A stretch of 64,000 nt of DNA, taken from positions 1-64,000 of the forward strand of contig NZ_LWSK01000002.1 of assembly GCF_001642955.1 (NCBI RefSeq), in the 5' to 3' direction. Below are positions 1 through 27,491 of this stretch, piece after piece. The position numbers and the translations under genes are program-made. Position 1 is the first letter of the stretch. Each line of letters opens with the position of its first letter. The notes under the pieces are model-generated. The model ran no database searches and had not been told where the DNA came from. It saw only the letters and a program-made list of their open reading frames with translations. Source of the DNA: Rubripirellula obstinata (GTDB lineage: Bacteria > Planctomycetota > Planctomycetia > Pirellulales > Pirellulaceae).

Positions 1-1
1 C

Positions 2-109
2 AAGGTATCCGAGAAAAAGAAGAAGAAAATCAAACCACCCGAAGTCCGCCCCATCGAGAAAGAAGAACGCGAAAAGCTACAGCGAATTGATAACAACACG
101 GCTGCATAA
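2..109 (+). CDS. C-terminal fragment of an unrecognised gene (cut by the left edge)
   Basis: The second forward frame is open from the window edge to a TAA at 107-109 and encodes a short tail very rich in Lys, Glu and Arg (five consecutive lysines near its start), ending RIDNNTAA. It reads like the hydrophilic end of a real protein and better than the overlapping frame that runs into the flippase. No domain can be named from 35 residues. The stop codon overlaps the first bases of a dispersed repeat (108-127). Confidence 0.45.
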   Translation, partial: KVSEKKKKKIKPPEVRPIEKEEREKLQRIDNNTAA

Positions 110-1121: not shown

Positions 1122-1134
1122 TTACGATTGTGCC

Positions 1135-2307
1135 ATGAAATCGGATCCAATCGCGCCGCCCAACGTCCAGAATTTGCACGTCGTTTTTCAAGTCAATTTT
1201 GTCGCGCCAAATCTCATCGCAGTAATGCAGGAACTGGCGAAGCGAGTTGGGAAGCTAACAATTTTGTCTTCGGTTGACATGGAGGCAAATCGGGACTGGA
1301 AAGCCGATTGGCAGGGGTTGGAGGTGGTGGTCCAGAATACTTGGACGCTGACACGAAAGCCGGTTCATCCATCTGGTTACCAAGAGATCAACTACATCCA
1401 CATTCCATTGGATACATTCGGGCAGTTGAGACGGCTGAAACCAGATGTGATCGTGTCACTGGAAATGGGGGCGCGTTCATTGTTGGCATCGCTGCACTGT
1501 CGGTTTATGAGACGAAAGACGAAACACGTGCTGGCGGTCTATGCTTCCGAGCGTAGTGAAGCTGGTCGAGGTCCGCTGCGTCGATGGCTCAGGCGACGAC
1601 TGGTCGCAAAAGCAAAAGTGATCACGTCCAACGGCCCAAGCTGTACGAGGCTGCTAAAGAGTTATGGTGCGGAAACTGACAAAATTCTGCCTTGGAATTA
1701 TGCCTCGGATCCTTGCAAACGATTCACTGGTGAAGTGCGTGGTCGTGATGACGCGATGCAGCTAGAATTGTTGACCGTGGGACAACTCACCGAGCGCAAA
1801 GGGATCATCACGGCTGCCGAGCAGCTTACCGATTGGGCCACCCAGAATCCAGCGACGACGGTGCGGTGGAATGTGGTTGGAACCGGACCGCTCGCTGGTG
1901 ATTTGGAAACGATCAGCCGGCCTGCCAATCTAAATTTAGTCATGCATGGACACCAATCGCCACAGCAGATTATCGACCATTATCGCGACAACGACTTTTT
2001 GTTATTTCCGACCCTGGCCGACGAATGGGGGCTGGTCGTTGATGAGGCCCTGCATTCCGGGTTGCCGGTACTTGGCAGCGTACACAGCCAAGCGGCTGAA
2101 ACTTTGATCGCCAACGGAAAGAATGGCTGGACTTACGATCCCGAACATCCCGGCGGGCTGTCATCGATTCTTGGCGACGTCCAGCCGGTCTTCGGCGACG
2201 CGTATCAACAAATGACCTGTACCGCTCGCGAGAGCGTTTCCGAACGAACCGCCGAAGCTTCTGCGGAACAATTGGTGACTGCGATGAAAGCGGTTGTGTC
2301 ACCGTGA
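1135..2307 (+). CDS. Glycosyltransferase, GT-B fold, GT4-like
   Basis: This 390-residue protein has the C-terminal half of GT4 glycosyltransferases: TVGQLTERKGI near 214-224, the NVVGTGPL strand-loop near 246-253, and the donor-binding segment DEWGLVVDEAL at 296-306. The first acidic residue of the usual E-x7-E pair is Asp296, the second is Glu304. It probably transfers a sugar from a nucleotide donor to a growing polysaccharide at the cytoplasmic membrane; donor and acceptor cannot be told. The ATG at 1135 is preferred over an upstream TTG at 1060 because the latter lies inside the flippase gene. It overlaps the next gene by four bases (GTGA), so the two are translationally coupled. Confidence 0.88.
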   Translation: MKSDPIAPPNVQNLHVVFQVNFVAPNLIAVMQELAKRVGKLTILSSVDMEANRDWKADWQGLEVVVQNTWTLTRKPVHPSGYQEINYIHIPLDTFGQLRRLKPDVIVSLEMGARSLLASLHCRFMRRKTKHVLAVYASERSEAGRGPLRRWLRRRLVAKAKVITSNGPSCTRLLKSYGAETDKILPWNYASDPCKRFTGEVRGRDDAMQLELLTVGQLTERKGIITAAEQLTDWATQNPATTVRWNVVGTGPLAGDLETISRPANLNLVMHGHQSPQQIIDHYRDNDFLLFPTLADEWGLVVDEALHSGLPVLGSVHSQAAETLIANGKNGWTYDPEHPGGLSSILGDVQPVFGDAYQQMTCTARESVSERTAEASAEQLVTAMKAVVSP

Positions 2308-3425
2308 CGGCAACCGCAACTATATCGTTGGCAGTGTATCTGGCTGACCAAAATCCGCGACGTGATCGGAGTTTGGGTATCACGTCGATGACGCAATCGT
2401 TGTTGAATTCTTTTGCCAAACGTGACGATTTGGAAATCACGCAGGTGATCTCCAAAAGTTCATTCAGGGACGATGTGGCGGCCAGCAGGACCAGACGTTT
2501 ACCGTTTCGAACTGACAACCCAATCGGTCGATTGATTGCGGACAAAGGGCATAACATGTTCACAAATCCTGAGGTGGATTTGTGGTATTACCCCAAGGGC
2601 TATGTTGCTCATTTTTGTCAGACGAGTGTCCCTAAGATTGGCACGATGCATGACACGATCGTGCAATACTACGCTGACCGTTACCCTGAAACCCGTAGCT
2701 CTCGAGCCTTTGATTATTGGATTGGAAATACCCAGCGAAGTCTTCGCAAACTTGATCGGGTGCTAACGATTTCAGAAACGGCTGCCAATCAATTGCGTCA
2801 GTTTTGTGATCGCTACAAAATAGCGATCCCGACAATTGACATTACCTACGAAGGCAGTTGCTGGGAACACAGACGCGGCGAGTCTTTTCAAAAACAGGGC
2901 AATGCCGTTCACCTTGCCTCGGCTTCGCCGCACAAGGGAACCAACCGTTTGCTTGGCCTGTGGAAAGTTTTGCAGGAAAGAAACAAAGACTTGCCTAGAA
3001 TGACGTTGGTGGGAAAGCTGGATCAAACAGGTCAGGAAATCTTTGATCAACTTGATAATGTCGAAATGAAGCCCACCGAGCAAATTGACGCGTTACAACA
3101 GACAGTTGGGCAAGCATCGGTCTTGTTGTTGCCCAGTGAAATAGAAGGTTTTGGCTTGCCCGCGTTGGAGGCGTACTATGTCGGGACACCGGTTTGCTAC
3201 GCCGGCGGTACGTCGGTCGCCGAAGTCATTGACCCAATGGGACATCAGGGCGAATTTGCGATTGATGACGTCGATGACTTTGCGCGTTCACTTGATTGGG
3301 CACTGGATTTGTCGCCCACAAACATCGGTCAGATTAACGACTTGATGTACGACCGTTTTTCAATCGCCAAAGTCACCGACCGCATCATCGAAGCTTTCCG
3401 AATGACGTTGGACGACAATCGTTGA
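2304..3425 (+). CDS. Glycosyltransferase, GT4-like
   Basis: This 373-residue protein starts at a GTG overlapping the stop of the preceding glycosyltransferase. GT4 features are ASPHKGTNRLLG near 206-217 (donor-site loop), TLVGKL near 234-239, and the E-x7-E segment EGFGLPALEA from Glu281 to Glu289, followed by GTPVCYAGGTSVAEV. The N-terminal half has a Rossmann-like layout with GTMHDTI, common in mannosyltransferase-like members. It is predicted to be cytosolic and to act in the same exopolysaccharide pathway as its neighbour. The specific sugar is not inferable. Confidence 0.88.
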   Translation: MTATATISLAVYLADQNPRRDRSLGITSMTQSLLNSFAKRDDLEITQVISKSSFRDDVAASRTRRLPFRTDNPIGRLIADKGHNMFTNPEVDLWYYPKGYVAHFCQTSVPKIGTMHDTIVQYYADRYPETRSSRAFDYWIGNTQRSLRKLDRVLTISETAANQLRQFCDRYKIAIPTIDITYEGSCWEHRRGESFQKQGNAVHLASASPHKGTNRLLGLWKVLQERNKDLPRMTLVGKLDQTGQEIFDQLDNVEMKPTEQIDALQQTVGQASVLLLPSEIEGFGLPALEAYYVGTPVCYAGGTSVAEVIDPMGHQGEFAIDDVDDFARSLDWALDLSPTNIGQINDLMYDRFSIAKVTDRIIEAFRMTLDDNR

Positions 3426-3435
3426 GTAGTGTTGC

Positions 3436-3966
3436 ATGGCATTTTTGTTATTACTGATCGACGGCTACAACGTCTTATCGCCTGCTGCTGCACCGACCCG
3501 AAGTGATCCGTTGTGGCTGCACCGCGAACGAATGCAATTGATTTCTCGCTTGACGACTCACCTTGCACCGGAAACTTGCCAAAGAACCTGTGTTGTCTTC
3601 GACGCGGCCAACCCGCCCCCAGATCGTCCCGATCGTTTTGAAATCGGCGGGATCGATATTCGTTTTGCGGTCGATCACCCCGAAGCCGATGATCTGATCG
3701 AAGAGATGATTCGTGATCACCATGTTCCCAAAAAATTGACGGTCATTTCATCGGACCATCGCGTTCAGACAGCCGCGCGGCGGCGCGGCGCGACCGCCTT
3801 GGATTCGCAGCAATGGATCGATGACTTGCTTGACGGAAAGATCCGTTTGTCCAGCCAAGCGAGTGGAGCAGGGCAGGGCGGTGAGAACGAATCGATCGAT
3901 CACGATTCGAAGCCCTCGGTCGATCAGGATGAAGTCAACGAATGGATGGATAAGTTTGGGTTTTGA
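3436..3966 (+). CDS. YacP-like NYN (PIN-like) domain protein
   Basis: This 176-residue protein carries the NYN/YacP signature: an N-terminal strand ending in IDGYNVL (Asp9), a second acidic segment EADDLIEEMI near 83-92, and the ISSDHRVQTAARRRGA motif near 104-119. NYN domains are metal-dependent RNases of the PIN-like fold; the Bacillus homologue Rae1 cleaves mRNA on the ribosome, so an RNA-cleaving role is likely though not proven here. The acidic, Ser-rich C-terminus ends EWMDKFGF. It begins ten bases after the glycosyltransferase stop and may be co-transcribed, but it has no evident link to sugar metabolism. A strong palindrome follows its stop. Confidence 0.85.
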   Translation: MAFLLLLIDGYNVLSPAAAPTRSDPLWLHRERMQLISRLTTHLAPETCQRTCVVFDAANPPPDRPDRFEIGGIDIRFAVDHPEADDLIEEMIRDHHVPKKLTVISSDHRVQTAARRRGATALDSQQWIDDLLDGKIRLSSQASGAGQGGENESIDHDSKPSVDQDEVNEWMDKFGF

Positions 3967-3984
3967 AACGGTGATCGTTTCAAC

Positions 3985-4090
3985 GTAGGCCGGAACAAGC
4001 CGCTTCGGCGCAGTTCCGGCAATTGCATGTTGGGATGCCTGTCGGTGCCTGTCTGCCGGAACTGCGCCGAAGCGGCTTGTTCCGGCCTAC
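3985..4090. repeat. Large perfect palindrome, repeat family A (probable bidirectional terminator)
   Basis: Two 37-base arms, 3985-4021 and 4054-4090, are exact reverse complements around a 32-base loop. Each arm starts with GTAGGCCGGAACAAGC or its complement. It fills the space between the convergent NYN and transglutaminase genes and ends two bases before the latter's stop. A related but degenerate element lies at 7698-7784. It could fold in RNA from either strand and so end both transcripts. Confidence 0.9.
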
Positions 4091-4092
4091 AG

Positions 4093-4998
4093 CTACAGTG
4101 AAATCGGTGCAACATCGACCGAAACGCTTAACTTCGTCGAACCACCGCCGATTACCACGCCTCGCATCGGACTGACTTCGCTGTAATCGCGACCGATACA
4201 AATCGGAATGTGGTTGATTTCGGAAACGCACGCGTTGGTGGGATCAAAGCTAACCCAGCCCCATTTTTCGCCGGCATAAACGCTGATCCAGGCGTGCGAT
4301 TCATCGGCACCGACCAAGCGTGGCTGACCTTCCAACGGAATCGTTCGCAAGTAACCGCTGACGTAGCGTGCGGGGATTCCGATCGATCGCAAACACGCGA
4401 TCTGCACATGAGCAAAGTCTTGGCAAACACCGGCCTTCAAAGCGAAAGCAGCATCCGTTGCGGTGTTGACGTCGGTTGCTGCCGAATCATAACGAAAGTC
4501 CTGATGAATTCGCTTGGTCAAATCCAGCGTCGCTTGCAAGATCGGGCGTCCTGGTGGAAACGACGGAGCGGCGTACTGAGCAAACGCTTGGCTGCGCATA
4601 ATCCGCGGCGAATCATGCAGGTATTCTTGAGCTTCAAGCCAGCCAGGATTCTCGCCACTGCTGATCCGTTGGCGAACCATTTCCCACGGCGGCGAATCGA
4701 GTTTCATCACGGACTGCTTACGCGATACCGTCACCTCGCTAACAACGTTCACGGTAAGTTCGCGGTGCAGCAGCTCAATCGAAAAAGAGGTCACCTGATT
4801 GCCAAAGTAATCGAAATGATGTTCGACAAAAGTTGGCTCGGGCGTAATTTTTGTTTCCGCCTGATGACAGTTCATCGACAAACAGGGCGAATCAATGCTG
4901 TGCGGCATCATTCGCAATTGGTTCTGGCAAATGGCGACGGCGGATTCATACCGGTAATCAGTACGATGGCTGATGCGGTAGCTGGCGGAATCAGTCAA
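4093..4998 (-). CDS. Transglutaminase-like cysteine peptidase-fold protein
   Basis: This 301-residue protein has the bacterial transglutaminase-like N-terminal beta region (YRISHRTDYRYES near 7-19) and a transglutaminase core with the Cys192-His235-Asp252 triad (KAGVCQDFAH, DESHAWISV, SFDPTNAC). Family members are thiol enzymes that hydrolyse or transfer amide bonds. It is the last gene of the operon, starting five bases after the stop of the fused ATP-grasp/alpha-E gene. The start is TTG at 4998; the next in-frame ATG would remove the conserved N-terminal motif. In related operons this enzyme is predicted to trim or transfer peptides made by the ATP-grasp ligase; the substrate here is unknown. 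Confidence 0.9.
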   Translation of the reverse strand: MTDSASYRISHRTDYRYESAVAICQNQLRMMPHSIDSPCLSMNCHQAETKITPEPTFVEHHFDYFGNQVTSFSIELLHRELTVNVVSEVTVSRKQSVMKLDSPPWEMVRQRISSGENPGWLEAQEYLHDSPRIMRSQAFAQYAAPSFPPGRPILQATLDLTKRIHQDFRYDSAATDVNTATDAAFALKAGVCQDFAHVQIACLRSIGIPARYVSGYLRTIPLEGQPRLVGADESHAWISVYAGEKWGWVSFDPTNACVSEINHIPICIGRDYSEVSPMRGVVIGGGSTKLSVSVDVAPISL

Positions 4999-5003
4999 TG
5001 CGA

Positions 5004-7613
5004 TTACTCGACGTTAGGTAGCTTGGGGATGATTGCCCCTGACCCGGCGGATCCAGGTCGCGACGCGATGGGGTCAATGCGACCGGTCAATTCAACCGTC
5101 GCACCGGTGTGGATCAAATACCTTGCGGTGATGGCATCAGACAAATCGGGCAATTCGTTGGTTAGCTTCGTCAACAACTCATTCAAGCTGACGCGGACGC
5201 CTCGTGCATTGGCGTGGGACAACTCGGCTGGGTCATCCATCGTGACGCAATGCAAAAGTTTGCGAGCCATCTTTTCGTCCGGCCCCAAGCCTACTTCGTG
5301 ATGATCCGAGGGTAGCTCGCGGACGTGTTGATCAATCATCAGCAATTGATACATGATTGAACGCGGATTAGTTTCGTCGTTAACCAGCAAATCAATCACT
5401 GCGGTAGGTTGCATTTGCAGTAGATAACGCGACCGATACGTCATCATGCTATCGGTGGTTTGCAAAACTGATTCCAGAACAGGTGATTCGTCTTCGATCG
5501 GATTCACCAACATTGCCGAAAGCAGTTCGGCCGTTTGGTAGGCGCGTTCGATTCGACGTCCCAATTGCAAGAATCGCCATCCATGCGTTCGCGTCATGCT
5601 CTCGATCACTAATCCCGAAAACGCCTGTAGGTCGGTGATGATTCCATCCAGCCGGTTGATGACGGCTGCTATGTCGGTTGCATCGGAATGGTTGTCCCTA
5701 ACCAAGTGGTCGCCAATCTTTTTGATGATTCGGTAAGCGTCCAGCGAGACTCGGTCGTGGACCGACATGGCTTTTTCGCCCATGTCACGAATCCCGGCAA
5801 GCAAACCACCTAGTTTTTCGGCGTCAAACAGGCTTTCCGGAAGAACCTTTTCCAGCGATGGCAATTTCTCCCCCAGTCCCGCGATCGCGTGATCGGGTTC
5901 CAGTTGCCCCAGCGCGGCGAGGGCGGCAACCATGCGAGGAAGTTCGACAATGTCTTCGAGTTGAGTCTCGCCAGCGATTCGAATCAGGGTGGCGCGAAGC
6001 AGTCGAGCAATCGATTCGCTGCGCTCGGCACTGCGCCCAAGCCAGAACAGACTTTCGCCAACTCGGCTCGGCATCTCTGCACCACCGCGGACCAAATTGA
6101 TCGGCGCATGGGACTGCTTCAGCAGCGTGACTTCGTGATCAACCGGCTTATCATTCGCGATCCAGCAATCCAGCCCAAGGCGACCGCTGGTCGGACTCTG
6201 GTCCAACGTTCGCGGATCAGGACTGACCCTAGCCAGTCCGCCGGGCATCACTTCCACACCATCCGCGGTTTGAACTTGGAACGATCGTAACGCAACGTGC
6301 CACGATTCCAACTTGCCCTCGTGCCAAACCGGTGTGCTGCTTCGCGAAGGTCGATGCTGAGCGACAAAGTTGTGTGGTTGAGCTTTGATTTGGTCAACCA
6401 AGTCGCTTTTCTCCGCAGCGGTCATTTCGTCTGGTGAAATGGGTGGTTCAGAAGAAACATAGAACGCAGGCCTTAGAATCAGTTCATCAAGATGCTCCAA
6501 AACGAAGGCTCGTTCGGATTGTCCACCGCACCAATACGTCCCGATGCTTGGCAGCGAAGGTTCCTCGCCAAACAAAAACTTGGATGCCGCAGGCAGGAAC
6601 GGCATCAGCGCCGGCATCTGAGCGAGCGTGCTGCCGATGCTGTTGGCCACAGCGACGTTGCCGCTGCGGATCGTTTGCAGCAACCCGGTCGCGCCTTGTT
6701 GTGATGAAGGGTTCAATTCAAGTGGATCGCTTTTGCGGTCCGAGATATGTCGGCACAAAACATCAATCGGCAACAATCCGCCAAGCGTTTTTAGATTCAG
6801 CTTGCCGCCACGGACGGCCAAGTCCCGCCCCTGGACCATGGTGTAACCAAGGTAGCGTGCAAGATAGGCGTCTTCGATATAACGATAGCTGTGCTGACCG
6901 GGCGTCAGGATTGCAACTCGCGGGTTTTCGGGGCTTCCGGCTGCAAGTGAATTGAGATGTTGTCTCAACGCTGAAAAAAACGAGGCAACGCGGACGACGT
7001 TGTTTCCACGCAGCAGCTTTTGAAAAACGCGGCTGGTGATGATCCGGTTTTCCAGTGCGTAACCCAATCCGCTTGGTGCCCGCGTGCGATCACCGGTCAC
7101 CCACCATGTGCCGTCCTTGTCGCGTGCTAGGTCGGTCGCGGTAACATCCAACCGAAGCTTTGTTTGAGGCAGTTCGTGGTAGACGCGATAGTAGTTGTGA
7201 TTGGCGCTTAGCAATTCCGCTGGCAAGACTTTGGCTTTTAACAGCTTTTGTTCGCCCAGCAGGTCGCCCAAGATCGCTTCCAACAATCGCACGCGCTGTT
7301 GCAATCCGGCTTCAAGCAATTGCCATTTCTGCGCGTCCAACACCAATGGGATCGCGGCAAGTTTCCATGGCCGCGCCGATCGCTTGATAATGTCAGCGAA
7401 TTGAAAGTTCGCACCGCTTTCTCGAACAAGTCTTTCGATTTCGTGCGAAGCTTTGGAAATGCCAGCGGGACCAAGGTCGTCCAGGCTAGAAATCAATGAT
7501 TTCCAAGCCGGCCGAACGGTACCGTCGGCTGCACGACATTCGTCATACTGGTCGCCGGAAGGCATGTACTTCGTAAAGGGATCAGAGGGGAGAATGGTCT
7601 GGTTCAATTCCAA
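5004..7613 (-). CDS. Circularly permuted ATP-grasp fused to alpha-E domain
   Basis: The 869-residue protein joins a circularly permuted ATP-grasp (about 15-505, with GDQYDECRAADG, VAILTPG, VMPGGLARV) to an all-helical alpha-E domain (about 513-840, starting SRVGESLFWLGRSAERSESIARLL). ATP-grasp ligases of this family are predicted to form amide bonds between peptides or amino acids. The stand-alone paralogue at 12281-13789 has YVLEDN, RRVDD and VIKAANESGGYG, whereas here the corresponding positions read WVTGDR, CRHISD and LILRPAFYVSS. The usual ATP-contacting Lys (Lys387 in the paralogue) is Arg381, so catalysis is doubtful. The start is TTG at 7613, the first NTG after an in-frame stop; ATG at 7565 is an alternative. 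Confidence 0.88.
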   Translation of the reverse strand: MELNQTILPSDPFTKYMPSGDQYDECRAADGTVRPAWKSLISSLDDLGPAGISKASHEIERLVRESGANFQFADIIKRSARPWKLAAIPLVLDAQKWQLLEAGLQQRVRLLEAILGDLLGEQKLLKAKVLPAELLSANHNYYRVYHELPQTKLRLDVTATDLARDKDGTWWVTGDRTRAPSGLGYALENRIITSRVFQKLLRGNNVVRVASFFSALRQHLNSLAAGSPENPRVAILTPGQHSYRYIEDAYLARYLGYTMVQGRDLAVRGGKLNLKTLGGLLPIDVLCRHISDRKSDPLELNPSSQQGATGLLQTIRSGNVAVANSIGSTLAQMPALMPFLPAASKFLFGEEPSLPSIGTYWCGGQSERAFVLEHLDELILRPAFYVSSEPPISPDEMTAAEKSDLVDQIKAQPHNFVAQHRPSRSSTPVWHEGKLESWHVALRSFQVQTADGVEVMPGGLARVSPDPRTLDQSPTSGRLGLDCWIANDKPVDHEVTLLKQSHAPINLVRGGAEMPSRVGESLFWLGRSAERSESIARLLRATLIRIAGETQLEDIVELPRMVAALAALGQLEPDHAIAGLGEKLPSLEKVLPESLFDAEKLGGLLAGIRDMGEKAMSVHDRVSLDAYRIIKKIGDHLVRDNHSDATDIAAVINRLDGIITDLQAFSGLVIESMTRTHGWRFLQLGRRIERAYQTAELLSAMLVNPIEDESPVLESVLQTTDSMMTYRSRYLLQMQPTAVIDLLVNDETNPRSIMYQLLMIDQHVRELPSDHHEVGLGPDEKMARKLLHCVTMDDPAELSHANARGVRVSLNELLTKLTNELPDLSDAITARYLIHTGATVELTGRIDPIASRPGSAGSGAIIPKLPNVE

Positions 7614-7697
7614 AGCCGCCGAACATGGAATGGGAAACCATCAATCTTAGTTCGCGATTGAACTTAGCGACATGGTGGGTCATCGGTTGCAAACTGC

Positions 7698-7784
7698 GTA
7701 GGCCGGAACAAGCTTAACGCAGTTCCGGCAATTGCATGGTATTGAATCAAATTGCCGGACCTGCGCTAAGCTTGTTCCGACCGA
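7698..7784. repeat. Imperfect palindrome, repeat family A
   Basis: Arms 7704-7733 and 7750-7779 are reverse complements with two mismatches, and the outer GTAGGCC matches the element at 3985-4090. It lies in the 204-base gap between the DUF2126 gene and the fused ATP-grasp gene, on the template of one operon, where it may attenuate transcription or protect mRNA ends. Confidence 0.85.
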
Positions 7785-7817
7785 CAACTATTCTCAAAAC
7801 CAAAAACGTGACGCTTC

Positions 7818-10800
7818 CTAAAACTGTCTACGCAAATCCAAAGTCACCGGATAAGGACGATAACCTAGTGGATGGACGTGCGGCGAAACTGGGGCCGGCA
7901 CTTCGATGGTGCCCCCCGACATGCCAAAGTCCTCGAACCGGGCCGCACGACGTGATTCGGCTTCGTTGGCGTTGATCGGAAAACGATCGGTCCCGCGACC
8001 GCCCGGGTGCGCCACATGGTAAGTGCAACCACCAATCGATCGTCGATTGCGGGTGTCCACCAACTCAATCCGCAGCGGTGTGTGAACGCCAATCGTTGGA
8101 TGCAAACAACGCGGCGGCTGCCATGCACGGAAACGAATGCCCGCAACATATTGGCCGGTTACCGACGTGCTATGCAGCGGCACGTTGACGCCGTTGCACA
8201 ACACCGCATAACGAGTTGTGTCGAAGTGATCCAGCAATACTTCCACCCGTTCGACTGACGAATCAACGAACCGAGCAGTACCGCCACCGCCGGGTTCTTC
8301 GCCCATGACGTACCACGGTTCGATCGCCGAACGAAGCTGCATCGCGATGCCCTGATAATTGACCTCGCCAATCTTGGGGAACCGGAATTCAAAGTGAGGC
8401 ACGAACCATTGCGGATCCATCTTGGCATCGTCCGATGCAATTTCACCAATCGCATCGCATAAATCTTGCCAGACAAAATGCGGCAGCATGAACTTGTCAT
8501 GCAAACTGTTTTCCCAATGCGTCAGCGGCTTAGCGTAAGGTTGTTTCCAAAACGCTGCGACGATCGAGCGAATAAACAACTGCTGCGCCAGACTCATCCG
8601 AGCGTGCGGTGGCATTTCAAATCCACGCAGTTCGACTAGGCCAAGTCGGCCAGTCACACTGTCGGGCGAATAGAGTTTGTCGATGCAAATTTCGGCGCGG
8701 TGAGTGTTACCGGTCAAATCGACTAACAAATCACGGAACAGTCGGTCCACCAACCAGGGCTGGATAAATTCGCCTCGTTCGGGCAATTGCGACAGTGCAA
8801 TTTCCATTTCATAAACCGAGTCGCGGCGGCTTTCGTCAAACCGAGGTGCTTGACTGGTCGGGCCAATGAACCGGCTGCTGAACAGATACGACAGGGCAGG
8901 GTGGTTGTTCCAGAACGAAATCACACTGCCCAGCAAATCAGGCCTGCGCAGAAACGGGCTGTCCATCGGCGTCGCACCGCCCATCACGATGTGGTTTCCA
9001 CCTCCGGTACCGGTGTGGCGACCATCCAGATCAAACTTGTCCGTTCCCAACCGACACTGTTTGGCTTCTTCGTAAAGTGTTTCAGTCAGGTTGACCAACG
9101 AATCCCAGCTCGATGATGGCTGTGTGTTGACTTCAATCACACCAGGATCGGGTGTCACCTTGAAAAATTCAACGCGGTGGTCTGACGGAGGCAAATAGCC
9201 TTCGATGATCACTGGCAGTTCCAACGCGGCACAGGTGTCTTCGACCGCGCTGATCAGGTCCAAGTAGTCTTCCATCCGCTGAGTCGGCGGCATAAAGACA
9301 TGCAAGCGACCGTGACGACATTCGACGCACAGCGCGGTTCGCACAATGTCATCGCTGGTCGGCAGATCGTCATCGTCTTCTAGGTCAAGGGTTTGTTCGT
9401 TGACGTAGCCAGCGTTGGATGCCGAATCGTCGCTTGACGCACCATCGCGGACGACTTCGTATTCGTTTCCCTTTGGCATCTCGCGAGACGGCATCCCACG
9501 TGAAGAAGGCAACGAACCACGCAGAGTCGTTGGGTCCTGCGGTAACGTGTAGATCGCATCGGACTCAGCAGAAGCAACGGGCAAAGTGTCAAGCGGCAAT
9601 CGTAATCCCAACGGCGATTCACCTGGCAACAAATAAACCTTGCCACCACGCACCGGCCAGCGACCACCGATCCAACCGGGACGCGCTTGCCACCAAGCAC
9701 GTCGCATCGGGATGACGAAACCGACGGGCGTTCCCAAGCCATTTTGGAATGTGCGAATCATCATCGCCCGCTCGTTGGGGTCTTCCAGTTTTGGATCGGT
9801 CGGATCAACGTCGATCGGTAAACGTTGTTCACGCCACAAGTAATGGAAGGTGTCTTCGTAGACCGGGAACGTCATCTTTGCGCTAATGTTCAATTCGCGG
9901 GCCAAGTGACGAACGAATCGATTGGCATCTTCGGATTTGAAATTGTAATCGTGTCCTTCGTCAGCCAACCATTGCGGGTCGCGCCAAATGGGTTCGCCGT
10001 CGTTTCGCCAAAGACAGGTCAGCGCCCACCGTGGCAACGATTCACCGGGATACCATTTGCCTTGTCCGTAATGCAGCAAACCGCCCGGTGCAAATTTATC
10101 TCGCATACGAAGCAACAGCACATTGCTGAGTACGCGTTTTTCTTCGCCAACCGCATCCGTGTTCCACTGCGGATCTTCCATGTTGTCGATCGACACGAAC
10201 GTTGGCTCGCCGCCCATCGTCAAACGCACGTCGCCTTCGTCGAGTTGCTGATCAACCTTGCGACCGACTTCAAGAATGTCATTCCATTGATCGTCGGAGT
10301 ACGGCATCGTGACGCGTGGCGTCTCGTAATAACGTGACACCGACATCTCGTGCGAAAACGTGACTTCGCATGCTTCGTGCCCGCCGGTGATCGGTGCTGC
10401 GCCCTCGTAGGATGGCGTACAAGCCAATGGAATGTGACCTTCGCCCGCAAACAAACCGCTGGTGGGATCCAGTCCAACCCAACCTGCACCGGGCAAGAAG
10501 ACTTCGACCCAAGCATGCAGATCACAAAAATCTTCGGTCGGTCCCGATGGTCCATCAAGCGGCTTTTCATCCGCAGTTAACTGAATCAAATAGCCCGATA
10601 CGAATCGTGCAGCCAAACCGATTTGCCGGTAAGACTGGACCATCATCCAAGCCGAATCGCGGCATGAACCACTGTTGATCGTCAGCGTTTCTTCGGGCGT
10701 TTGAACACCCGGTTCCATCCGGACCAGATACTCAACGCGGTCCTTGGCCATTTGGTTGGCTTCGACCAGGAAATCCACCATGCGGTCGGCGGACTTGGGC

Positions 10801-11201
10801 AACTGGCTGACCCACTTTTCCAAAGCCGGCGTCATCGGCTCGCACTCTAGGTAGGGTGCCAACTGCAGTTTCAACGCAGGGTCGTAAACAAAAGGCCAAT
10901 GGTCAGATTCTTCTTCGATGAAGAAATCAAACGGATTGATCACCGTCATGTCAGCGATCAAATCGACCGTAATACTGAGGTGATCGCACAGTTCAGGAAA
11001 CACATAGCGAGCGATCGGGTTGCCAAACGGATCCTGTTGCCAGTTGCAGAAATGCTTGCCTGGCGAAACGTCCAAACCGTATGAATCGATCGGCGTCCGG
11101 CCGTGATAGGCGGGGCGCAGGCGGATCAATTGCGGACCGACTTCAATCGGTCGGTCGTAGTTGTATTGAGTCTTGTGGTGAAGTGCGACGCGAATCGTCA
11201 T
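7818..11201 (-). CDS. Transglutaminase-like plus DUF2126 protein
   Basis: This 1127-residue protein begins with a transglutaminase-like region with the N-terminal beta domain (about 1-150) and the triad Cys180 (INSGSCRDSA), His229 (FCDLHAWVEV) and Asp245 (VGLDPTSG). The remaining ~800 residues are a DUF2126 region with GEPTFVSIDNMEDPQWNT, GTGGGNHIVMGGATP and a glutamine-synthetase-like feel (amidoligase relationships have been proposed for such operons). Length matches full DUF2126 proteins (about 1100). It overlaps the upstream alpha-E gene by four bases (ATGA), indicating coupled translation. The likely role is in making or handling a peptide product together with the ATP-grasp proteins; no substrate is visible. 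Confidence 0.92.
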   Translation of the reverse strand: MTIRVALHHKTQYNYDRPIEVGPQLIRLRPAYHGRTPIDSYGLDVSPGKHFCNWQQDPFGNPIARYVFPELCDHLSITVDLIADMTVINPFDFFIEEESDHWPFVYDPALKLQLAPYLECEPMTPALEKWVSQLPKSADRMVDFLVEANQMAKDRVEYLVRMEPGVQTPEETLTINSGSCRDSAWMMVQSYRQIGLAARFVSGYLIQLTADEKPLDGPSGPTEDFCDLHAWVEVFLPGAGWVGLDPTSGLFAGEGHIPLACTPSYEGAAPITGGHEACEVTFSHEMSVSRYYETPRVTMPYSDDQWNDILEVGRKVDQQLDEGDVRLTMGGEPTFVSIDNMEDPQWNTDAVGEEKRVLSNVLLLRMRDKFAPGGLLHYGQGKWYPGESLPRWALTCLWRNDGEPIWRDPQWLADEGHDYNFKSEDANRFVRHLARELNISAKMTFPVYEDTFHYLWREQRLPIDVDPTDPKLEDPNERAMMIRTFQNGLGTPVGFVIPMRRAWWQARPGWIGGRWPVRGGKVYLLPGESPLGLRLPLDTLPVASAESDAIYTLPQDPTTLRGSLPSSRGMPSREMPKGNEYEVVRDGASSDDSASNAGYVNEQTLDLEDDDDLPTSDDIVRTALCVECRHGRLHVFMPPTQRMEDYLDLISAVEDTCAALELPVIIEGYLPPSDHRVEFFKVTPDPGVIEVNTQPSSSWDSLVNLTETLYEEAKQCRLGTDKFDLDGRHTGTGGGNHIVMGGATPMDSPFLRRPDLLGSVISFWNNHPALSYLFSSRFIGPTSQAPRFDESRRDSVYEMEIALSQLPERGEFIQPWLVDRLFRDLLVDLTGNTHRAEICIDKLYSPDSVTGRLGLVELRGFEMPPHARMSLAQQLFIRSIVAAFWKQPYAKPLTHWENSLHDKFMLPHFVWQDLCDAIGEIASDDAKMDPQWFVPHFEFRFPKIGEVNYQGIAMQLRSAIEPWYVMGEEPGGGGTARFVDSSVERVEVLLDHFDTTRYAVLCNGVNVPLHSTSVTGQYVAGIRFRAWQPPRCLHPTIGVHTPLRIELVDTRNRRSIGGCTYHVAHPGGRGTDRFPINANEAESRRAARFEDFGMSGGTIEVPAPVSPHVHPLGYRPYPVTLDLRRQF

Positions 11202-12148
11202 GTGGTAACCGCCGAGTGAAAGAAGTCTTGATTCATCGCAATGCCGATGTCATTGATGTCTGTTTGTGTCTTGTCGATAAATTCATGCATCCCCTGATCT
11301 AAGACTTCATCGACATCCGCCGAAGACAACCGAACCTGAAGCTCGCAAGCCAATTCCAACGCATGATGATCGGAATCATCGCTGGACATGCTGCCAATTT
11401 TTAACAACGATTCACAGGCACCATCGATGCAGAATAATACTGAACGTGGAAAGGTAGAATTGAATAGGAAGAATTCGACAACCGTGGGGACGCGAATCAA
11501 TCGGTGCATCGACCGATAAGGCTCGAATCCGCTAATGGCTGAAAGCAGTGCTGACCATTGCAAGTCGTCAACCGCTGTTCCCACATCATCGAGCTGCGGA
11601 AGGATGTTGAAATACTTGACGTCCAAAATACGCGACGTCTTGTCAGCCCGTTCCAGCAATCGACCGACGTTAGCAAAGTGCCAACCCATGTTGCGTGACA
11701 TCGTGCTGTCCAGGACACCCGTCCAGCGAATCGCAAATCGCCGAACAGAATCAAAGAAATCAGTGTGCGAAAGTTGAGACGCACTTGCCGCGGAGTCTCG
11801 AACGAAATAGTAAAATTCGTTCAGTTGTTCAAAGGTCTCTGACGATAACGATTCGCGAACGCTGCGGGCATTCTCGCGAGCGTGCCATAGATTCGAGATC
11901 ATGGAATTAGAATACGTATCGTCGAACGCCAAGAAATGCGTCACCGATTCAACGTCCATGACTTTGAACCGCTCGTCAAATTTTTTCTGATCGGCGGTGA
12001 CTTGAATCAGCGGTGCCCAGGGGTCCACCAAGTCTTCTGGTTGATCCAAGATTAAGTTGTGCGTGACCTCAAGAAAACGAGCTAGATTTTCTGCTCGCTC
12101 AACTTGGCGACTCATCCAATAGATTGATTCAGCAACTCGTGACAACAT
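11198..12148 (-). CDS. Alpha-E domain protein
   Basis: This 316-residue, all-helical protein begins MLSRVAESIYWMSRQVERAENLARFLEV, the hallmark opening of the alpha-E (DUF403) family. It aligns by eye with the C-terminal half of the fused protein at 5004-7613 (SRVGESLFWLGRSAERSESIARLL). Alpha-E proteins always accompany circularly permuted ATP-grasp ligases and are thought to assist them; no catalytic function is known. It lies between the stand-alone ATP-grasp gene upstream (132-base gap with hairpins) and the DUF2126 gene, which it overlaps. Confidence 0.92.
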   Translation of the reverse strand: MLSRVAESIYWMSRQVERAENLARFLEVTHNLILDQPEDLVDPWAPLIQVTADQKKFDERFKVMDVESVTHFLAFDDTYSNSMISNLWHARENARSVRESLSSETFEQLNEFYYFVRDSAASASQLSHTDFFDSVRRFAIRWTGVLDSTMSRNMGWHFANVGRLLERADKTSRILDVKYFNILPQLDDVGTAVDDLQWSALLSAISGFEPYRSMHRLIRVPTVVEFFLFNSTFPRSVLFCIDGACESLLKIGSMSSDDSDHHALELACELQVRLSSADVDEVLDQGMHEFIDKTQTDINDIGIAMNQDFFHSAVTT

Positions 12149-12191
12149 GAAGCGATACTTTGTCAGTGAAGGAGTGGGGGTGGAAGCGTAG

Positions 12192-12240
12192 CGAAAGTCG
12201 CCAGGACTTTCGGCTCTGCAGGGATGCCGAGACTCCCTGC
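12192..12240. repeat. Two adjacent hairpins inside the operon
   Basis: Stem 1 pairs 12192-12199 with 12205-12212 (CGAAAGTC/GACTTTCG) and stem 2 pairs 12218-12224 with 12234-12240 (GCAGGGA/TCCCTGC). They lie between the ATP-grasp and alpha-E genes and could process or attenuate the operon mRNA. Confidence 0.7.
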
Positions 12241-12280
12241 GGGTTTTAATGCGAATTTGGCCGCGAAATAGATTTCGGAA

Positions 12281-13789
12281 TTAGACTTCGGCGATCGTTT
12301 GTCCCGGTTCTGCCGAGACCCAGGTGTCTTTGCTGCCGCCGCCCTGAGATGAATTAACAACCAACGAGCCTTTGCGAAGGGCGACACGCGTTAGTCCACC
12401 AGGCATCACCCAAACGTCATCTTTGCCGCACAAGATATACGGACGCAGATCGACATGCCGACCCTCGATCTTGTCTCCGAACACCGTTGGGGCTCGCGAA
12501 AGTGAAAGCGTTGGCTGAGCAACAAAGTTGCGAGGGTTCTTGCGAATCTGATCAGCGAAATCTTTTCGCTCGGCATCGGTCGCGTGCGGGCCGATCAGAA
12601 TACCATAGCCGCCTGATTCATTCGCAGCCTTAATCACCAATTGGTCCATGTTCTTCAGGACGTGTTCGCGTTCGTCTTCTCGCAGACAAACATAGGTCGG
12701 CACATTGGGAAGAATTTGCTTCTCGCCGAGGTAGTATTCGATCATGTCTGGGACGTAGGCGTAGATCACCTTGTCGTCGGCAACGCCTGTTCCCGGTGCA
12801 TTGGCAAGCGAAACATTGCCCGCACGGTAGGCTCGCATCAAACCAGCGACACCTAGCATCGAATCCGAACGGAAGACTTCTGGATCTAAGAAGATGTCAT
12901 CGACCCGGCGGTAGATCATGTCAACTCGCTGCAATCCGTCGGTCGTTCGCATGTAGACGAAGTCTTTTTCGACAATCAAGTCGCGACCTTCGACCAATTC
13001 AATTCCCATCTGCTGGGCAAAGAACGAATGCTCGTAGTAGGCGCTGTTGTACATCCCTGGCGTTAGCACGACGACCTTGGGGTCATCCACCGTCGGAGGA
13101 GCCATCTCTCGCAGCATTTGGTACAACCGAGCTGGGTAATCATTCACCGGGCGAACCTGCGAAGATTGAAACGCCTGCGGAAAGTTTTTCTTCATCAAGA
13201 ATCGATTCTGCATCACGTAGGATGCACCCGATGGACAACGCAGGTTGTCTTCCAGCACGTAGAAAGCGCCGGTGTCGTCGCGTACCAAGTCAGTCCCGGT
13301 GACGTGGCACCACACGTCATTGAATGGTTTCAGCCCCATGCACTGCGGCAAGAACGTCGGTGCTGAATCGATTAACTCACGCGGCAGGATGCCATCGTTG
13401 ACAATTTCCTGTTTTGAATAGATATCCGACAGGAACATGTTCAGCGCTTTGATTCGCTGACGAAGTCCCGCATCAATATGTCGCCACAGAATCGAAGGAA
13501 CGATTCGAGGCAGAATGTCGAACGGCATGATCTTTTCGGTACCGGCATCGTCGCTGTAGACGGTGAAGGTAATGCCCATCTGATACAAGGCTTTTTCAAT
13601 CGCATTTTGTCGGCGGAACAGTTCGCCCGGAGCCAATCCATTGATCAGATTTATTAATGCGGTCGAATCGGGCCGAGATTGACCGCCCTGCAAAACCAAT
13701 TCATCAAAAAAGCCGCCTGTGTCATAACCAGCCAACGCGGATTGCGGGTGTGGAGCGGATTGCGTTTGAGATTGCGACTGTTGAGACAT
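12281..13789 (-). CDS. Circularly permuted ATP-grasp ligase, stand-alone
   Basis: This 502-residue protein is a circularly permuted ATP-grasp family member with the expected functional motifs: YVLEDNLRCPSGASY (Glu180, Asn182) for metal and nucleotide, YRRVDDIFLDP (294-303), VIKAANESGGYG (Lys387, Gly-rich loop) and VMPGGLTRVAL near the end. It is predicted to use ATP to ligate an amino group to a peptide carboxylate. It is the first gene of the operon, beginning ATG at 13789 with a Gln/Ser-rich leader (MSQQSQSQTQ) that is probably disordered. All catalytic-type residues seem present, unlike in the fused copy. Confidence 0.92.
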   Translation of the reverse strand: MSQQSQSQTQSAPHPQSALAGYDTGGFFDELVLQGGQSRPDSTALINLINGLAPGELFRRQNAIEKALYQMGITFTVYSDDAGTEKIMPFDILPRIVPSILWRHIDAGLRQRIKALNMFLSDIYSKQEIVNDGILPRELIDSAPTFLPQCMGLKPFNDVWCHVTGTDLVRDDTGAFYVLEDNLRCPSGASYVMQNRFLMKKNFPQAFQSSQVRPVNDYPARLYQMLREMAPPTVDDPKVVVLTPGMYNSAYYEHSFFAQQMGIELVEGRDLIVEKDFVYMRTTDGLQRVDMIYRRVDDIFLDPEVFRSDSMLGVAGLMRAYRAGNVSLANAPGTGVADDKVIYAYVPDMIEYYLGEKQILPNVPTYVCLREDEREHVLKNMDQLVIKAANESGGYGILIGPHATDAERKDFADQIRKNPRNFVAQPTLSLSRAPTVFGDKIEGRHVDLRPYILCGKDDVWVMPGGLTRVALRKGSLVVNSSQGGGSKDTWVSAEPGQTIAEV

Positions 13790-14123
13790 CGGGGGGCCAA
13801 TGGAGCGATCAAAAGTGTAAACGACAACACGGCCCAGCCAAAAAGCTGAGCTCGTCGGATCCGTAACCGCCTCACGGAATGCCAGAGTTTAACCGCGTCT
13901 GATCCTAGGTAAAAGTCTCAACCTCCAAAACGCCGCTATCGCCAAGGTGGGGGGACGAATTCTCGCCTTAACACGTTCTTTCATTCCCTCAAGGCTCCCC
14001 AATCGCCCAGCAATCGCCCAGCAACCGACCATCAATCGCCCAGCGTGCCGGTCACAAAGAAAGAACTCAATTCAGTGCGGGGCAAGCGGAAAGATGACAC
14101 GTGAAGTGAATCCGGGACGATTG
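13790..14123. other. Intergenic, upstream of the ATP-grasp operon
   Basis: The 334-base gap carries the presumed promoter of the leftward operon and the end of the leftward 162-residue gene. The only structure seen is the 11-base tandem repeat at 14000-14043. No open frame has convincing coding character. Confidence 0.6.
14000..14043. repeat. 11-base tandem repeat, four units
   Basis: CAATCGCCCAG occurs at 14000-14010, 14011-14021 and 14033-14043, with a degenerate unit (CAACCGACCAT) at 14022-14032. It lies about 210 bases upstream of the ATP-grasp start; it may be a simple slippage array or a set of protein sites. Confidence 0.8.
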
Positions 14124-14612
14124 CTAGATCAGTGAACGATCCGGAGTCAAAAGTTGATAGTTTCCTACTCCCACTGAATCATTGAGCGTCTGCAAGATCA
14201 TTCGTTGTCGCGATTTGTCATCGTAGGGGCCTGGCAGATAGGTCGGCTTGCCCTCGAATCCGAACTCTTCTTCAACGGCAGATTGATTGGGATCGACGTC
14301 GCCCCAAATCCATCTCACTTTGTCGTAATCCGGGTGTGGTTTCAGTCCCAGCGAAGCGGCGTAGGCGACGCCACCCTCCACGATGGACCTTCCCCGTTCG
14401 GGCGAGCACTCGATAAGGTTAATTTTCGATCTGAGTTCTTCCATCATTTCTTTCGCGAACGCGGGCGATTGGATTCCTGCGACAACGTCTTTTACTCCCA
14501 AGCACCACCTGTCGACCAAGAAGTGGGCGTTCGCCACCATTGATCTCGGAGCCCGTCTTGTGATCAAGATGGAAGTCATTCCATTGAATTCCGAATCTCT
14601 CGAATCGCCCAT
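14124..14612 (-). CDS. Conserved protein of unknown function
   Basis: This 162-residue soluble protein has no signal peptide. It opens MTSILITRRAPRSMVANAHF and contains VDRWCLGVKD near 33-42, the segment VEGGVAYAASLGLKPHPDY near 78-96 and FEGKPTYLPGPYDD near 118-131. I recall this pattern (VD-xx-CLGVKD, YAxSLGFxPHxDY, GKPxYxxGP) from widely spread uncharacterised bacterial proteins, sometimes next to SEC-C domain genes, but I cannot assign a function. It is flanked by repeat-rich DNA and probably has its own transcript. Confidence 0.8.
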   Translation of the reverse strand: MGDSRDSEFNGMTSILITRRAPRSMVANAHFLVDRWCLGVKDVVAGIQSPAFAKEMMEELRSKINLIECSPERGRSIVEGGVAYAASLGLKPHPDYDKVRWIWGDVDPNQSAVEEEFGFEGKPTYLPGPYDDKSRQRMILQTLNDSVGVGNYQLLTPDRSLI

Positions 14613-14627
14613 ATAGCAACTAAGGAA

Positions 14628-14726
14628 CGAGCGGGAAATTAGTGTCGCCTTTCGCTCCGCGAAAGTAGCGAATCCGCTGCTTTCGCGGAGCGAAAGGCGA
14701 CTATAAAAAGTCGCACGTTCCTAAGG
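14628..14726. repeat. Nested palindrome with repeat D
   Basis: The inner arms 14644-14665 and 14680-14701 are perfect 22-base reverse complements (GTCGCCTTTCGCTCCGCG at the start). Outer arms 14628-14637 and 14717-14726 pair with one mismatch. The right side contains GACTATAAAAAGTCGCACGT (14699-14718) of the 26-base unit also found at 15041-15066. Confidence 0.85.
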
Positions 14727-15040
14727 ATCTCACCCGTGGCACTCAACTTCATCGAACCTGCAAGCGATCGAGTCATTTGTTTCAGACGCGATGCTTCCCG
14801 CACTTTGCGAGCATCCTTGGCTCGTTGTTTCGCGATCTTTTGTTGACGCTTCCATAATGGCTGAGTGAATAGTCCCGGCGGGACGGAAGCTCTCTGCCGG
14901 GGATGTAAATCCCCGGATGGCAGCGTTATATCTCACCAATTCTCTGGGGCAGCCATCCGGGTGCTCGCGCACCCGGCAAGGAGCTGCCGGCCCTCCGGGC
15001 CTAACTCGCAGCAACGGATGCAACGTCCCGAGCGAAACGC

Positions 15041-15066
15041 GACTCTAAAAAGTCGTACGTTCCTAA
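15041..15066 (+). repeat. Repeat D, copy 2
   Basis: GACTCTAAAAAGTCGTACGT followed by TCCTAA matches 14699-14724 with two mismatches. The GACT..AGTC ends are complementary, giving a small hairpin. Confidence 0.8.
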
Positions 15067-15315
15067 CGTTTGGATGGATTATTCGACAACACCAAATCAA
15101 TGCGTCTGACGACGCGGGGTGCAGCACTGGTTGCGCCCAACACGAGCAATGGAAAAAGCACTGTCATGGCCGAACTTGATCAGGTTCTTTGATTTGGTTG
15201 GGCGAGGAATTTGACCACGGAGTCACTGAGGGGCACAGCGATGAAGGACGTAAAACATGCGACTCTGCGTCTCTGCGACTCTGTGGTTGTACTGTTTCTT
15301 TTGGTTGGGTCTAAA

Positions 15316-15461
15316 CCCAACGCCGTGAAGGGTTTTTGAACTGTTTAACCGCGTGGGCATCGCCCCGCGCGTCCATGCGGGGCGAAACGCGCGGGGCGAT
15401 GCCCACGCGGCTAAACGAACTAATCGGTGTTTTCCGTGACCAAAACTCTTCACGGCGTTGG
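15316..15461. repeat. Repeat B composite palindrome
   Basis: A repeat B copy in reverse (15316-15335) and a near copy in forward direction (15442-15461) flank a perfect 24-base inverted repeat (15349-15372 and 15387-15410, containing GCGGGGCGATGCCCACGCGG) with a 14-base loop. The same 20-base inner core recurs at 18059-18078. The layout resembles a small mobile palindromic element. Confidence 0.85.
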
Positions 15462-15466
15462 ATCCC

Positions 15467-15513
15467 ACCTCTCCCGCCCCGCGGGAGAGGTCGAGCCAAA
15501 GCGAGGGAGAGGG
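15467..15513. repeat. Repeat C, copy 1
   Basis: An 11-base perfect stem (15467-15477 with 15481-15491, ACCTCTCCCGC) is followed by a sequence such that 15481-15513 (33 bases) is identical in reverse complement to 27272-27304. Confidence 0.88.
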
Positions 15514-15774
15514 CTCGCGACAACGCTCGCCCCATCCCGGTAAAAAAAGGGGTTAGGACTCGATTAAAGCACAAGCGATGGAACTGTCCTAACGCCTTGT
15601 GCGTGTCACTTTTCCGTATGCAACCGTTAGCGCAGATTTCCATGCCGAAAAGGGTGGATTGGGTTGACTGCCCCTGCCGCGAATTATCTGCTGTGTCAAT
15701 GACCGCGTGAACATTTGCGTATGGCCATTACCGCACAGAGATACTAAAGCGACGTTAAGCACCGGAGAAGATCT

Positions 15775-17940: not shown

Positions 17941-18284
17941 TCGTCGCAGTTAGGAGCATCTAAACCATAAGCGGCATAGGCTTCCAGCCTTTTTATACCC
18001 CACAACTTTTCTGCGGGATTTGGCCCAACGCCGTGAAGGGTTTCTAAACTGTTAAACTGCGGGGCGATGCCCACGCGGCTTAACAAAACAATGGGTTTTG
18101 ATCTCTGTTGGCTTCGCTTCCATGCTCGGTCAACGTTATACTCTCGCTTCGCGAGTTCAGCTCGACGGGCGAAGACTAGCTGATACGTGTGGTTGCGTTC
18201 AGGTGCGTGGAACGGGCGTCACCGGCTCGTTAGTCTTCTCAGAAGAGTCGCTCGACTATACCCATCAAAAAGTCGCCATACGTG
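17941..18284. other. Intergenic, upstream of the ECF sigma gene
   Basis: The 344-base gap holds a repeat B copy with the GCGGGGCGATG core (18024-18080) and a stretch bounded by an 8-base inverted repeat (18171-18178 and 18231-18238, GAAGACTA/TAGTCTTC). The promoter of the sigma/kinase pair must lie here, but I could not assign its boxes. No coding frame is convincing. Confidence 0.6.
18024..18080. repeat. Repeat B, copy with palindrome core
   Basis: 18024-18043 is the exact reverse complement of AAACCCTTCACGGCGTTGGG, and 18059-18078 repeats the core GCGGGGCGATGCCCACGCGG of the 15387-15410 arm. One arm of the long palindrome is lacking, so it is a half-element. Confidence 0.85.
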
Positions 18285-27193: not shown

Positions 27194-27491
27194 AAGCGAG
27201 TGTGTTACAACCGATTCCGGTGGTAACGCTTTCTGGCGGCCAAGAGGAAGGCCAACGCAATTCGATGCGAACCCTCTCCCTCGCTTTGGCTCGACCTCTC
27301 CCGCAAGCGAGAGAGGTGAAATACTGCGAAAATCGCATCGTTTTTCAAAACGAAGAGCAGCAATTGGGTGGCGATGGCCAGGTAAACAATCTTCGCATTC
27401 GGAGGTTTTTTGATCAACTCGCGCGAAGTGGGTGGCGGGGAATTGGTTCGTAATACGAGCTAAGTGTGTTCCGTAATTTCAATCAGATGCG
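27194..27491. other. Intergenic between subtilase and second sigma gene
   Basis: About 300 bases that contain the repeat C copy (27272-27318). The promoter of the sigma/kinase pair should be here or within the first uncertain codons of the sigma gene. No further structure is recognised. Confidence 0.55.
27272..27318. repeat. Repeat C, copy 2
   Basis: 27272-27304 is identical, in reverse complement, to 15481-15513 (33 bases). Adjacent sequence (ACCTCTCCCGC then GCGAGAGAGGT) forms a hairpin with one mismatch. Confidence 0.88.

Follow-up and report, generated by a model that had tools for sequence, protein, structure and literature searches.

Why should a bacterium carry, side by side, a separate and a fused copy of the same two domains? 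The question is raised by the first 64,000 nucleotides of contig NZ_LWSK01000002.1 (C112) of Rubripirellula obstinata, here called the window, whose genome assembly comprises 6.58 Mb in 307 contigs. Between positions 4093 and 13789 of the window, five leftward genes encode a stand-alone ATP-grasp protein, a stand-alone Alpha-E protein, a fusion of both domains and two transglutaminase-like proteins, one of them joined to a DUF2126 domain. An earlier, sequence-only reading of the window had described them as two versions of a system in one operon. The results presented here incline, with moderate confidence, to a single ligase system in which the fused protein is a likely non-catalytic partner, and not to two parallel systems.

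All five open reading frames (ORFs), called AG, AE, TGD, FUS and TGA in the order of transcription, are intact, and their Pfam matches far exceed the curated cut-offs, which confirms the gene content and orientation given by that reading. A search of NCBIfam (E 0.001) yielded zero matches for any of the five proteins. The whole genome has two Alpha-E matches (E ≤ 0.001), both at this locus. Its parts are the following.

12281..13789, minus strand: AG, stand-alone circularly permuted ATP-grasp protein, 502 amino acids; CP_ATPgrasp_2 557 bits; active site intact-looking
13244..13252, minus strand: codons 180-182 of AG, E-D-N, putative Mg-binding ExN motif, kept in 63/63 distinct AG sequences
11198..12148, minus strand: AE, stand-alone Alpha-E protein, 316 amino acids; Alpha-E 295 bits; E-R motifs E17-R18 and E166-R167
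7818..11201, minus strand: TGD, transglutaminase-like domain plus DUF2126 putative amidoligase, 1127 amino acids; DUF2126 (PF09899) 1268-1269 bits
7695..7795, no strand: dispersed hairpin repeat between TGD and FUS; 99 genome matches; DNA fold z -9.5
5004..7613, minus strand: FUS, ATP-grasp-like domain fused to Alpha-E, 869 amino acids; CP_ATPgrasp_2 420 bits plus Alpha-E
7086..7094, minus strand: codons 174-176 of FUS, G-D-R replacing E-D-N of AG, by alignment with AG
5115..6074, minus strand: Alpha-E half of FUS; PF04168, about 233-235.5 bits
4093..4998, minus strand: TGA, stand-alone transglutaminase-like protein, 301 amino acids; Bact_transglu_N and Transglut_core

The two ATP-grasp copies were compared by aligning the ATP-grasp regions of AG and FUS relatives. 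From 68 AG and 103 FUS ORFs, 64 and 95 lay within the length limits, or 65 and 96 with the window's own pair; removal of two AG and one FUS duplicates left 63 and 95 distinct sequences, on which residues were counted, the FUS counts not covering Actinobacteria or Cyanobacteria. The results showed that E180, N182, K387, G393, G394, G396, D447 and R449 are jointly present in 63/63 AG, whereas an equivalent of any of E180, N182, D447 or N479 occurs in 0/95 FUS. Clustering at 90% repeated this split (0/80 FUS, 54/54 AG), and before the removal of duplicates E180, N182, D339, K340, D447, S481 and P426 were each found in 0/96 FUS rows and Q482 in 1/96. The glycine loop of AG, SGGYG (around 392-396), is scrambled in FUS: positions 393 and 396 and the stretch 479-482 vary widely and are partly gapped, and no one residue regularly takes the place of the glycines at 393 and 396. 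In the window's FUS, E-D-N is changed to G-D-R, the loop lysine (K387) to R, and the loop reads SSEP. The E180-x-N182 motif of AG matches, by motif and spacing, E330-x-N332 of the E. coli glutathionylspermidine synthetase, whose K-12 sequence contains D318, E330 and N332, residues that we take to be its Mg ligands. FUS has shed the ExN motif and the glycine loop along with further residues invariant in AG, and is therefore most likely a non-catalytic partner; with E and N missing from every FUS and present in every AG counted, the pair is probably a catalyst and its partner, and the description as two versions is probably wrong.

The loss of these residues does not extend to the fold. There are 94 AG-invariant columns, 21 of which are kept in fewer than 5% of FUS sequences and 41 in at least 80%, which indicates that the fold is under constraint; FUS would thus appear to combine constraint with the absence of the catalytic set. 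No dN/dS ratio (nonsynonymous to synonymous substitution) is claimed, because the synonymous divergence has reached saturation in all but one of the 15 gene pairs compared, and in that one it is 2.95. The structure 3n6x is the sole PDB sequence match (E ≤ 0.01) of both proteins (AG 2e-155, FUS 1e-60), and it is also the best structural match (E 4e-30) of the AlphaFold2 model of FUS, the predicted local distance difference test (pLDDT) of which is 86. Further Foldseek matches of the N-half of FUS are the glutathione and glutathionylspermidine synthetases 2hgs, 2io7 and 2io8, YgiC and YjfC (E 1e-9 to 2e-6, 10-13% identity). Matching of the model to 3n6x and then to these synthetases suggests that the fold persists without the catalytic set. 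In a tree of the 51 AG and 78 FUS sequences left after removal at 85% identity, all AG are split from all FUS by one branch, with support readings of 0.93 and 1.0 that are re-rootings on that identical branch. A single old divergence, and not repeated decay, is therefore indicated, and by its sequence FUS looks like an old, conserved pseudo-ligase.

The distribution of the genes points in the same direction. Of 195 genomes of the phylum, that of R. obstinata among them, 48 contain Alpha-E, 34 DUF2126 and 46 a CP_ATPgrasp_2 match above the cut-off. FUS, scored as ATP-grasp plus Alpha-E within one long frame, was present in 34, and by hand count all 34 had AG and a separate Alpha-E, AG being in two contig-end pieces in G136 and cut in G120; DUF2126 accompanied FUS in 32 of them. 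AG without FUS occurred in 11 genomes (G047, G063, G072, G080, G081, G117, G140, G141, G161, G222 and G226), with one stop in the AG frame of G080 and with G133, at 35 bits just over the cut-off, excluded. In a set of 40 genomes of relatives (own included) FUS was found in 20, in three as pieces only, and among these carriers a separate Alpha-E was absent only in G038, whose AG sits at a contig end. This dependence in one direction, FUS always with AG and AG sometimes without FUS, fits a partner role.

The layout of the genes was compared at 80 loci gathered around DUF2126, the best of at least 591 confirmed relatives (at least 593 pattern matches), a sample biased to the relatives of the query. 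TGD-FUS-TGA stood alone in the stretch examined at 26 loci, AE-AG lay divergent beside TGD-FUS-TGA at 13, AG-AE-TGD-FUS-TGA ran in one direction as in the window at 12, and 29 had mixed or cut patterns. By record title these loci belong to Planctomycetes, Verrucomicrobia, Acidobacteria, Proteobacteria and Nitrospirota, and further genera among them were taken to be Bacteroidetes and Desulfobacterota; FUS was not seen in the two loci from Acidobacteria (L064, L065) or in that of Flexithrix (L091). All five genes are also found in L062, from a Rubripirellula metagenome genome, the nearest named relative found. The layout is common, and TGD-FUS-TGA, whether or not AG-AE accompanies it, recurs in several phyla.

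Comparison across the genus and the phylum at large divides the five genes into two modules, [AG-AE-TGD] and [FUS-TGA]. As in the window, the modules adjoin and are colinear in L146, L147, L148 and L155 (cut at a contig end); they are convergent in L145, and apart in four relatives: G003 (L149/L150), G001 (L151/L152), G012 (L153/L154) and G215 (L158/L159). The proposed operon may hold within the modules, where AE and TGD overlap by 4 nucleotides and FUS and TGA are separated by 5, and loses ground between them, where a gap of 204 nucleotides carries the strong hairpin of the dispersed repeat and where the linkage is broken in the four relatives and the orientation convergent in L145. The hairpin is near-perfect over roughly 90 nucleotides, and its other places in the genome are 74-95% identical; being palindromic, the repeat matches both strands, so that the 99 matches are read as about 50 places. 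Its position means that a single transcript of all five genes is not assured. A scan of the locus for sigma-70 promoters and terminators gave no excess over the shuffled expectation.

The remaining domains were analysed in the same manner, from source ORFs of 80 AE, 103 FUS, 81 TGA and 128 TGD. For Alpha-E, 64 AE and 64 FUS rows were kept (62 and 63 distinct), and for the transglutaminase domain 71 TGA and 109 TGD rows (70 and 107 distinct). The Cys-His-Asp triad is present in 100% of the TGA and TGD rows, and in the window it is intact in both proteins, as Cys180-His229-Asp245 in TGD and Cys192-His235-Asp252 in TGA. AE and the C-half of FUS both exceed the Pfam cut-off for Alpha-E. Residues E17, R18, E166 and R167 of AE are found in 100% of its 64 rows, and both E-R pairs in at least 95% of the 64 AE and the 64 FUS rows, while the AE-invariant R91, N110, R173 and W198 are not retained in the Alpha-E half of FUS. 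DUF2126 has many invariant polar residues. The full model of TGD has a pLDDT of 72.5, and its transglutaminase N-terminal end matches 3isr (5e-10).

The data show gene content, conservation, modules, residue loss and co-occurrence, from which reaction, substrate, partner role and physiology are inferred. In the proposed mechanism the five genes would constitute one system that forms or breaks amide bonds. AG and AE would be its engine, AG, to judge from its family, activating a carboxylate with ATP-Mg and joining it to an amine. TGD may supply DUF2126, a second putative ligase domain, joined to a thiol hydrolase/transferase domain; with TGA would come another thiol domain. Both proteins would presumably add to, transfer or trim the amide-linked product, which is probably a peptide or protein modification. 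FUS would have arisen by an ancient duplication of AG, with a second Alpha-E joined to it, and may assist AG-AE and TGA as a non-catalytic partner, be it in substrate or product binding, as scaffold or as regulator, so that FUS and TGA would form a detachable two-gene helper module. A bolder version, which we put forward only tentatively, has FUS as a trans-acting pseudo-ATP-grasp subunit, conserved across several phyla, whose vacated site, with Arg where a Mg ligand would be, senses or holds the product of AG-AE and hands it to TGA. If this pseudo-subunit version were true, each of the two "versions" would be one half of a single ligation-transfer machine, in analogy to pseudokinases. The ATP-grasp protein of the Yersinia Anbu operon liberates phosphate from ATP, according to the available portion of PMC6376114.

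The product is perhaps used under nitrogen stress, a weakly supported suggestion drawn by analogy with other bacteria. In the excerpts available of these sources, B. cenocepacia has DUF404/407, DUF403 and two transglutaminase genes as a cluster in the NtrC/sigma54 regulon (PMC5491218); nitrogen limitation of P. putida raises PP_2686-2688 11- to 37-fold, with NtrB/NtrC as putative regulator, and changes PP_2685 only 1.1-, 4.8- and 1.5-fold (PMC7801951); Anbu is raised in nitrogen-limited P. putida and unchanged under various other conditions (PMC5666114); and in marine metagenomes the system correlates with urea-metabolism domains (PMC3597751). Sigma54-like sites were found upstream of AG in 8 of 28 loci (shuffles 0.05) and upstream of TGD in 10 of 79 (shuffles 0.45), one of the latter in the Phycisphaerae locus L087, with a background of 0.007 per 350 nucleotides over all 80 loci; the loci counted had at least 200 nucleotides upstream, near-identical strains were left unmerged, and the shuffles kept base composition only. 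The PP_2685-2688 region is taken here to be the Anbu-operon genes of P. putida.

Clustering of neighbour genes over the 80 loci gave mostly lineage-specific neighbours and what seem to be shadows of other reading frames. The one genuine neighbour to recur was a zinc-ribbon/Peptidase_Mx metallopeptidase-like gene, found at 6 loci (L068, L069, L081, L088, L093 and L123), which adjoins AE in L069; the Pfam Peptidase_Mx assignment applies to the L069 copy only. The four flanking genes tested from the window locus, namely those for a glycosyltransferase, an NYN protein, the ORF at 14124-14612 and a TPR protein, went unmatched in the other 21 loci of the comparison. That upstream ORF (14124-14612, minus strand), considered as a sixth gene, was rejected on this count and for having no Pfam match (E 0.001); its product is an orphan hypothetical protein, which has a second match elsewhere in its own genome and has relatives in 7 of the 40 genomes, own included. 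Further along the window, the stretch 18282-21855 contains a sigma-factor-like ORF followed by a Ser/Thr kinase-like ORF with a repeat-rich C-terminus (judged by eye). The ORF at 38226-63149 (minus strand) encodes a giant protein of 8307 amino acids, in which beta-helix, laminin-G and cadherin-like repeats accompany numerous RTX calcium-binding ones, and this ORF encloses the strong GC skew of the region 54-56 kb.

Several observations weigh against a single system with a non-catalytic FUS or against parts of its proposed workings. FUS retains K387 in 62/95 and D167 in 85/95 sequences, which leaves room for nucleotide binding or a rewired activity, and the roles given to the residues follow from motifs and from the active sites of synthetases; profile alignment of AG with the E. 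coli glutathionylspermidine synthetase, global or local, yielded nothing usable, hence the active site was mapped by motif only. Co-occurrence counts are uncorrected for relatedness, and they include FUS without DUF2126 (G104, G111) and DUF2126 without FUS (G072, G140). The ligase fold of DUF2126 is predicted, not established, its best Foldseek match to a glutamine synthetase being weak (E 0.24, probability 0.77). With regard to complexes, pull-downs in Yersinia with Anbu as bait gave no specific partner in the available part of PMC6376114, which calls for caution with any complex claim. As to nitrogen, PP_2686-2688 are induced 14-, 16- and 20-fold in a P. putida rpoN mutant as against 13-, 11- and 15-fold in the wild type (excerpt of PMC7801951), and induction as strong in the mutant speaks against strict sigma54 control there. 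No sigma54-like site was found in positions 1-20000 of the window on either strand, nor in 29 upstream stretches (27 distinct) of AG and FUS from the window and phylum relatives, and therefore the nitrogen link would apply to the R. obstinata genome by analogy only.

Other explanations of the locus must be set beside a single system with FUS as non-catalytic partner. It is unlikely that FUS is enzymatically active through a rewired site which, lacking the classical Mg ligands, relies on different conserved residues, for example the Arg at the place of N182, to drive another nucleotide-dependent reaction. The near-invariance of its own residues (Arg at N182 in 84/95, Gly at S190 in 94/95) and the retention of R449 and D302 in 95/95, along with the K387 and D167 counts given above, would suit such an enzyme, but the variable, partly gapped glycine loop and 479-482 stretch would not, and the window copy itself has R for K387 and SSEP for the loop. 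A functional Anbu pathway, in which an orphan Anbu-transglutaminase pair acts in trans with AG-AE, is distinctly unlikely. The absence of Anbu noted in the sequence-only reading holds for the window and not for the genome. The only proteasome-family match of the genome (PF00227, E ≤ 0.1), on contig C280 at 26540-27280 (minus strand), is identified as an Anbu by its sequence, with a designed Anbu protein as its closest PDB hit (1.4e-38), and it overlaps a transglutaminase gene (the pair is L166, 5711-7281) with neither AG nor AE beside the pair, the contig ending about 600 bases upstream of Anbu. AG-AE-Anbu-transglutaminase are contiguous in L169-L171 and AG-AE-Anbu in L168, all from other planctomycetes, an Anbu-like ORF occurs in 3 of the 80 DUF2126 loci (L128, L136 and L139), G012, G017 and G019 also have the Anbu-transglutaminase pair, and a short stretch of G003 has Anbu by itself. 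However, 8 of the 40 genomes have an Anbu match and 20 have FUS; G001, G006 and G009, which carry AG-AE-TGD and FUS-TGA, have no match to the R. obstinata Anbu at E ≤ 0.001, a search that a very divergent Anbu could escape; and G017 has the pair without any match to Alpha-E or CP_ATPgrasp_2, which indicates that the pair can occur independently of AG-AE.

ATP-grasp ligases and thiol enzymes also occur in graspetide-like and other secondary-metabolite clusters, and the locus might on that account produce a ribosomal peptide or a small secondary metabolite. This is very unlikely. The precursor search covered 1490 non-core ORFs, each of 22 codons or more and lying up to 2.5 kb from one of 12 loci in 9 genomes, and found no family in more than 3 loci (E 1e-3), the clearest family (L150, L152, L154) representing an ordinary gene, about 390-420 codons long, together with its shadows in other reading frames; this bears out the earlier remark that no precursor peptide is visible. 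Moreover, the four flanking genes named above went unmatched in the other loci, and the five-gene core recurs across phyla, unlike a variable metabolite cluster. An anti-phage defence system is hardly credible: its one sign is that AE weakly matches HEC-01B of PADLOC (E 0.001, 16.8 bits), but PADLOC gave nothing at E ≤ 0.01 for the other 4 of the 5 proteins and none of 36 pattern matches in a viral collection encodes a TGD relative, and on these results the defence function was rejected.

A single system with AG as catalyst and FUS as its likely partner has practical consequences. The split between catalyst and partner changes which ATP-grasp gene is to be assayed and which may serve as a pull-down handle, and a likely non-catalytic FUS warns against its automatic annotation as a ligase in a gene family that is widespread across many bacteria. 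The two-module layout and the nitrogen link in other bacteria point to double mutants and to growth conditions for finding the product. A statement that the fused copy is inactive was not found in the literature searched, a search that did not extend to the 2009 amidoligase paper.

Comparison with known systems places the locus as follows. Iyer and colleagues reportedly predicted in 2009 an ATP-grasp/Alpha-E/transglutaminase (DUF2126) system for peptide tagging or peptide synthesis. The window shares CP_ATPgrasp, Alpha-E, Bact_transglu_N/Transglut_core and DUF2126 with it, and differs in having two Alpha-E and two ATP-grasp proteins, one apparently non-catalytic, and no Anbu at the locus. To our knowledge, no Alpha-E or DUF2126 partner exists for the glutathione and glutathionylspermidine synthetases, YgiC and YjfC, to which the N-half of FUS is alike in fold. 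The Methylobacillus flagellatus structure 3n6x, a "putative" glutathionylspermidine synthase for its depositors, carries the LEDN, SGGYG, HVDLRP and NSSQGGG stretches of AG, whereas FUS is without these residues. ATP-grasp, Alpha-E and transglutaminase proteins are likewise encoded in the Anbu operon of Yersinia and Pseudomonas, as portrayed in the portions available of PMC6376114 and PMC5666114; unlike that operon, R. obstinata has its Anbu on another contig with a transglutaminase of its own, and TGD and FUS-TGA are additional. The assignment of the locus to the predicted amidoligase systems agrees with the Pfam domains and with the citing papers (PMC5666114, PMC6376114 and PMC3597751, in the sections available). 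The system is of a known, predicted kind, and the window locus is a further member of it with a common layout.

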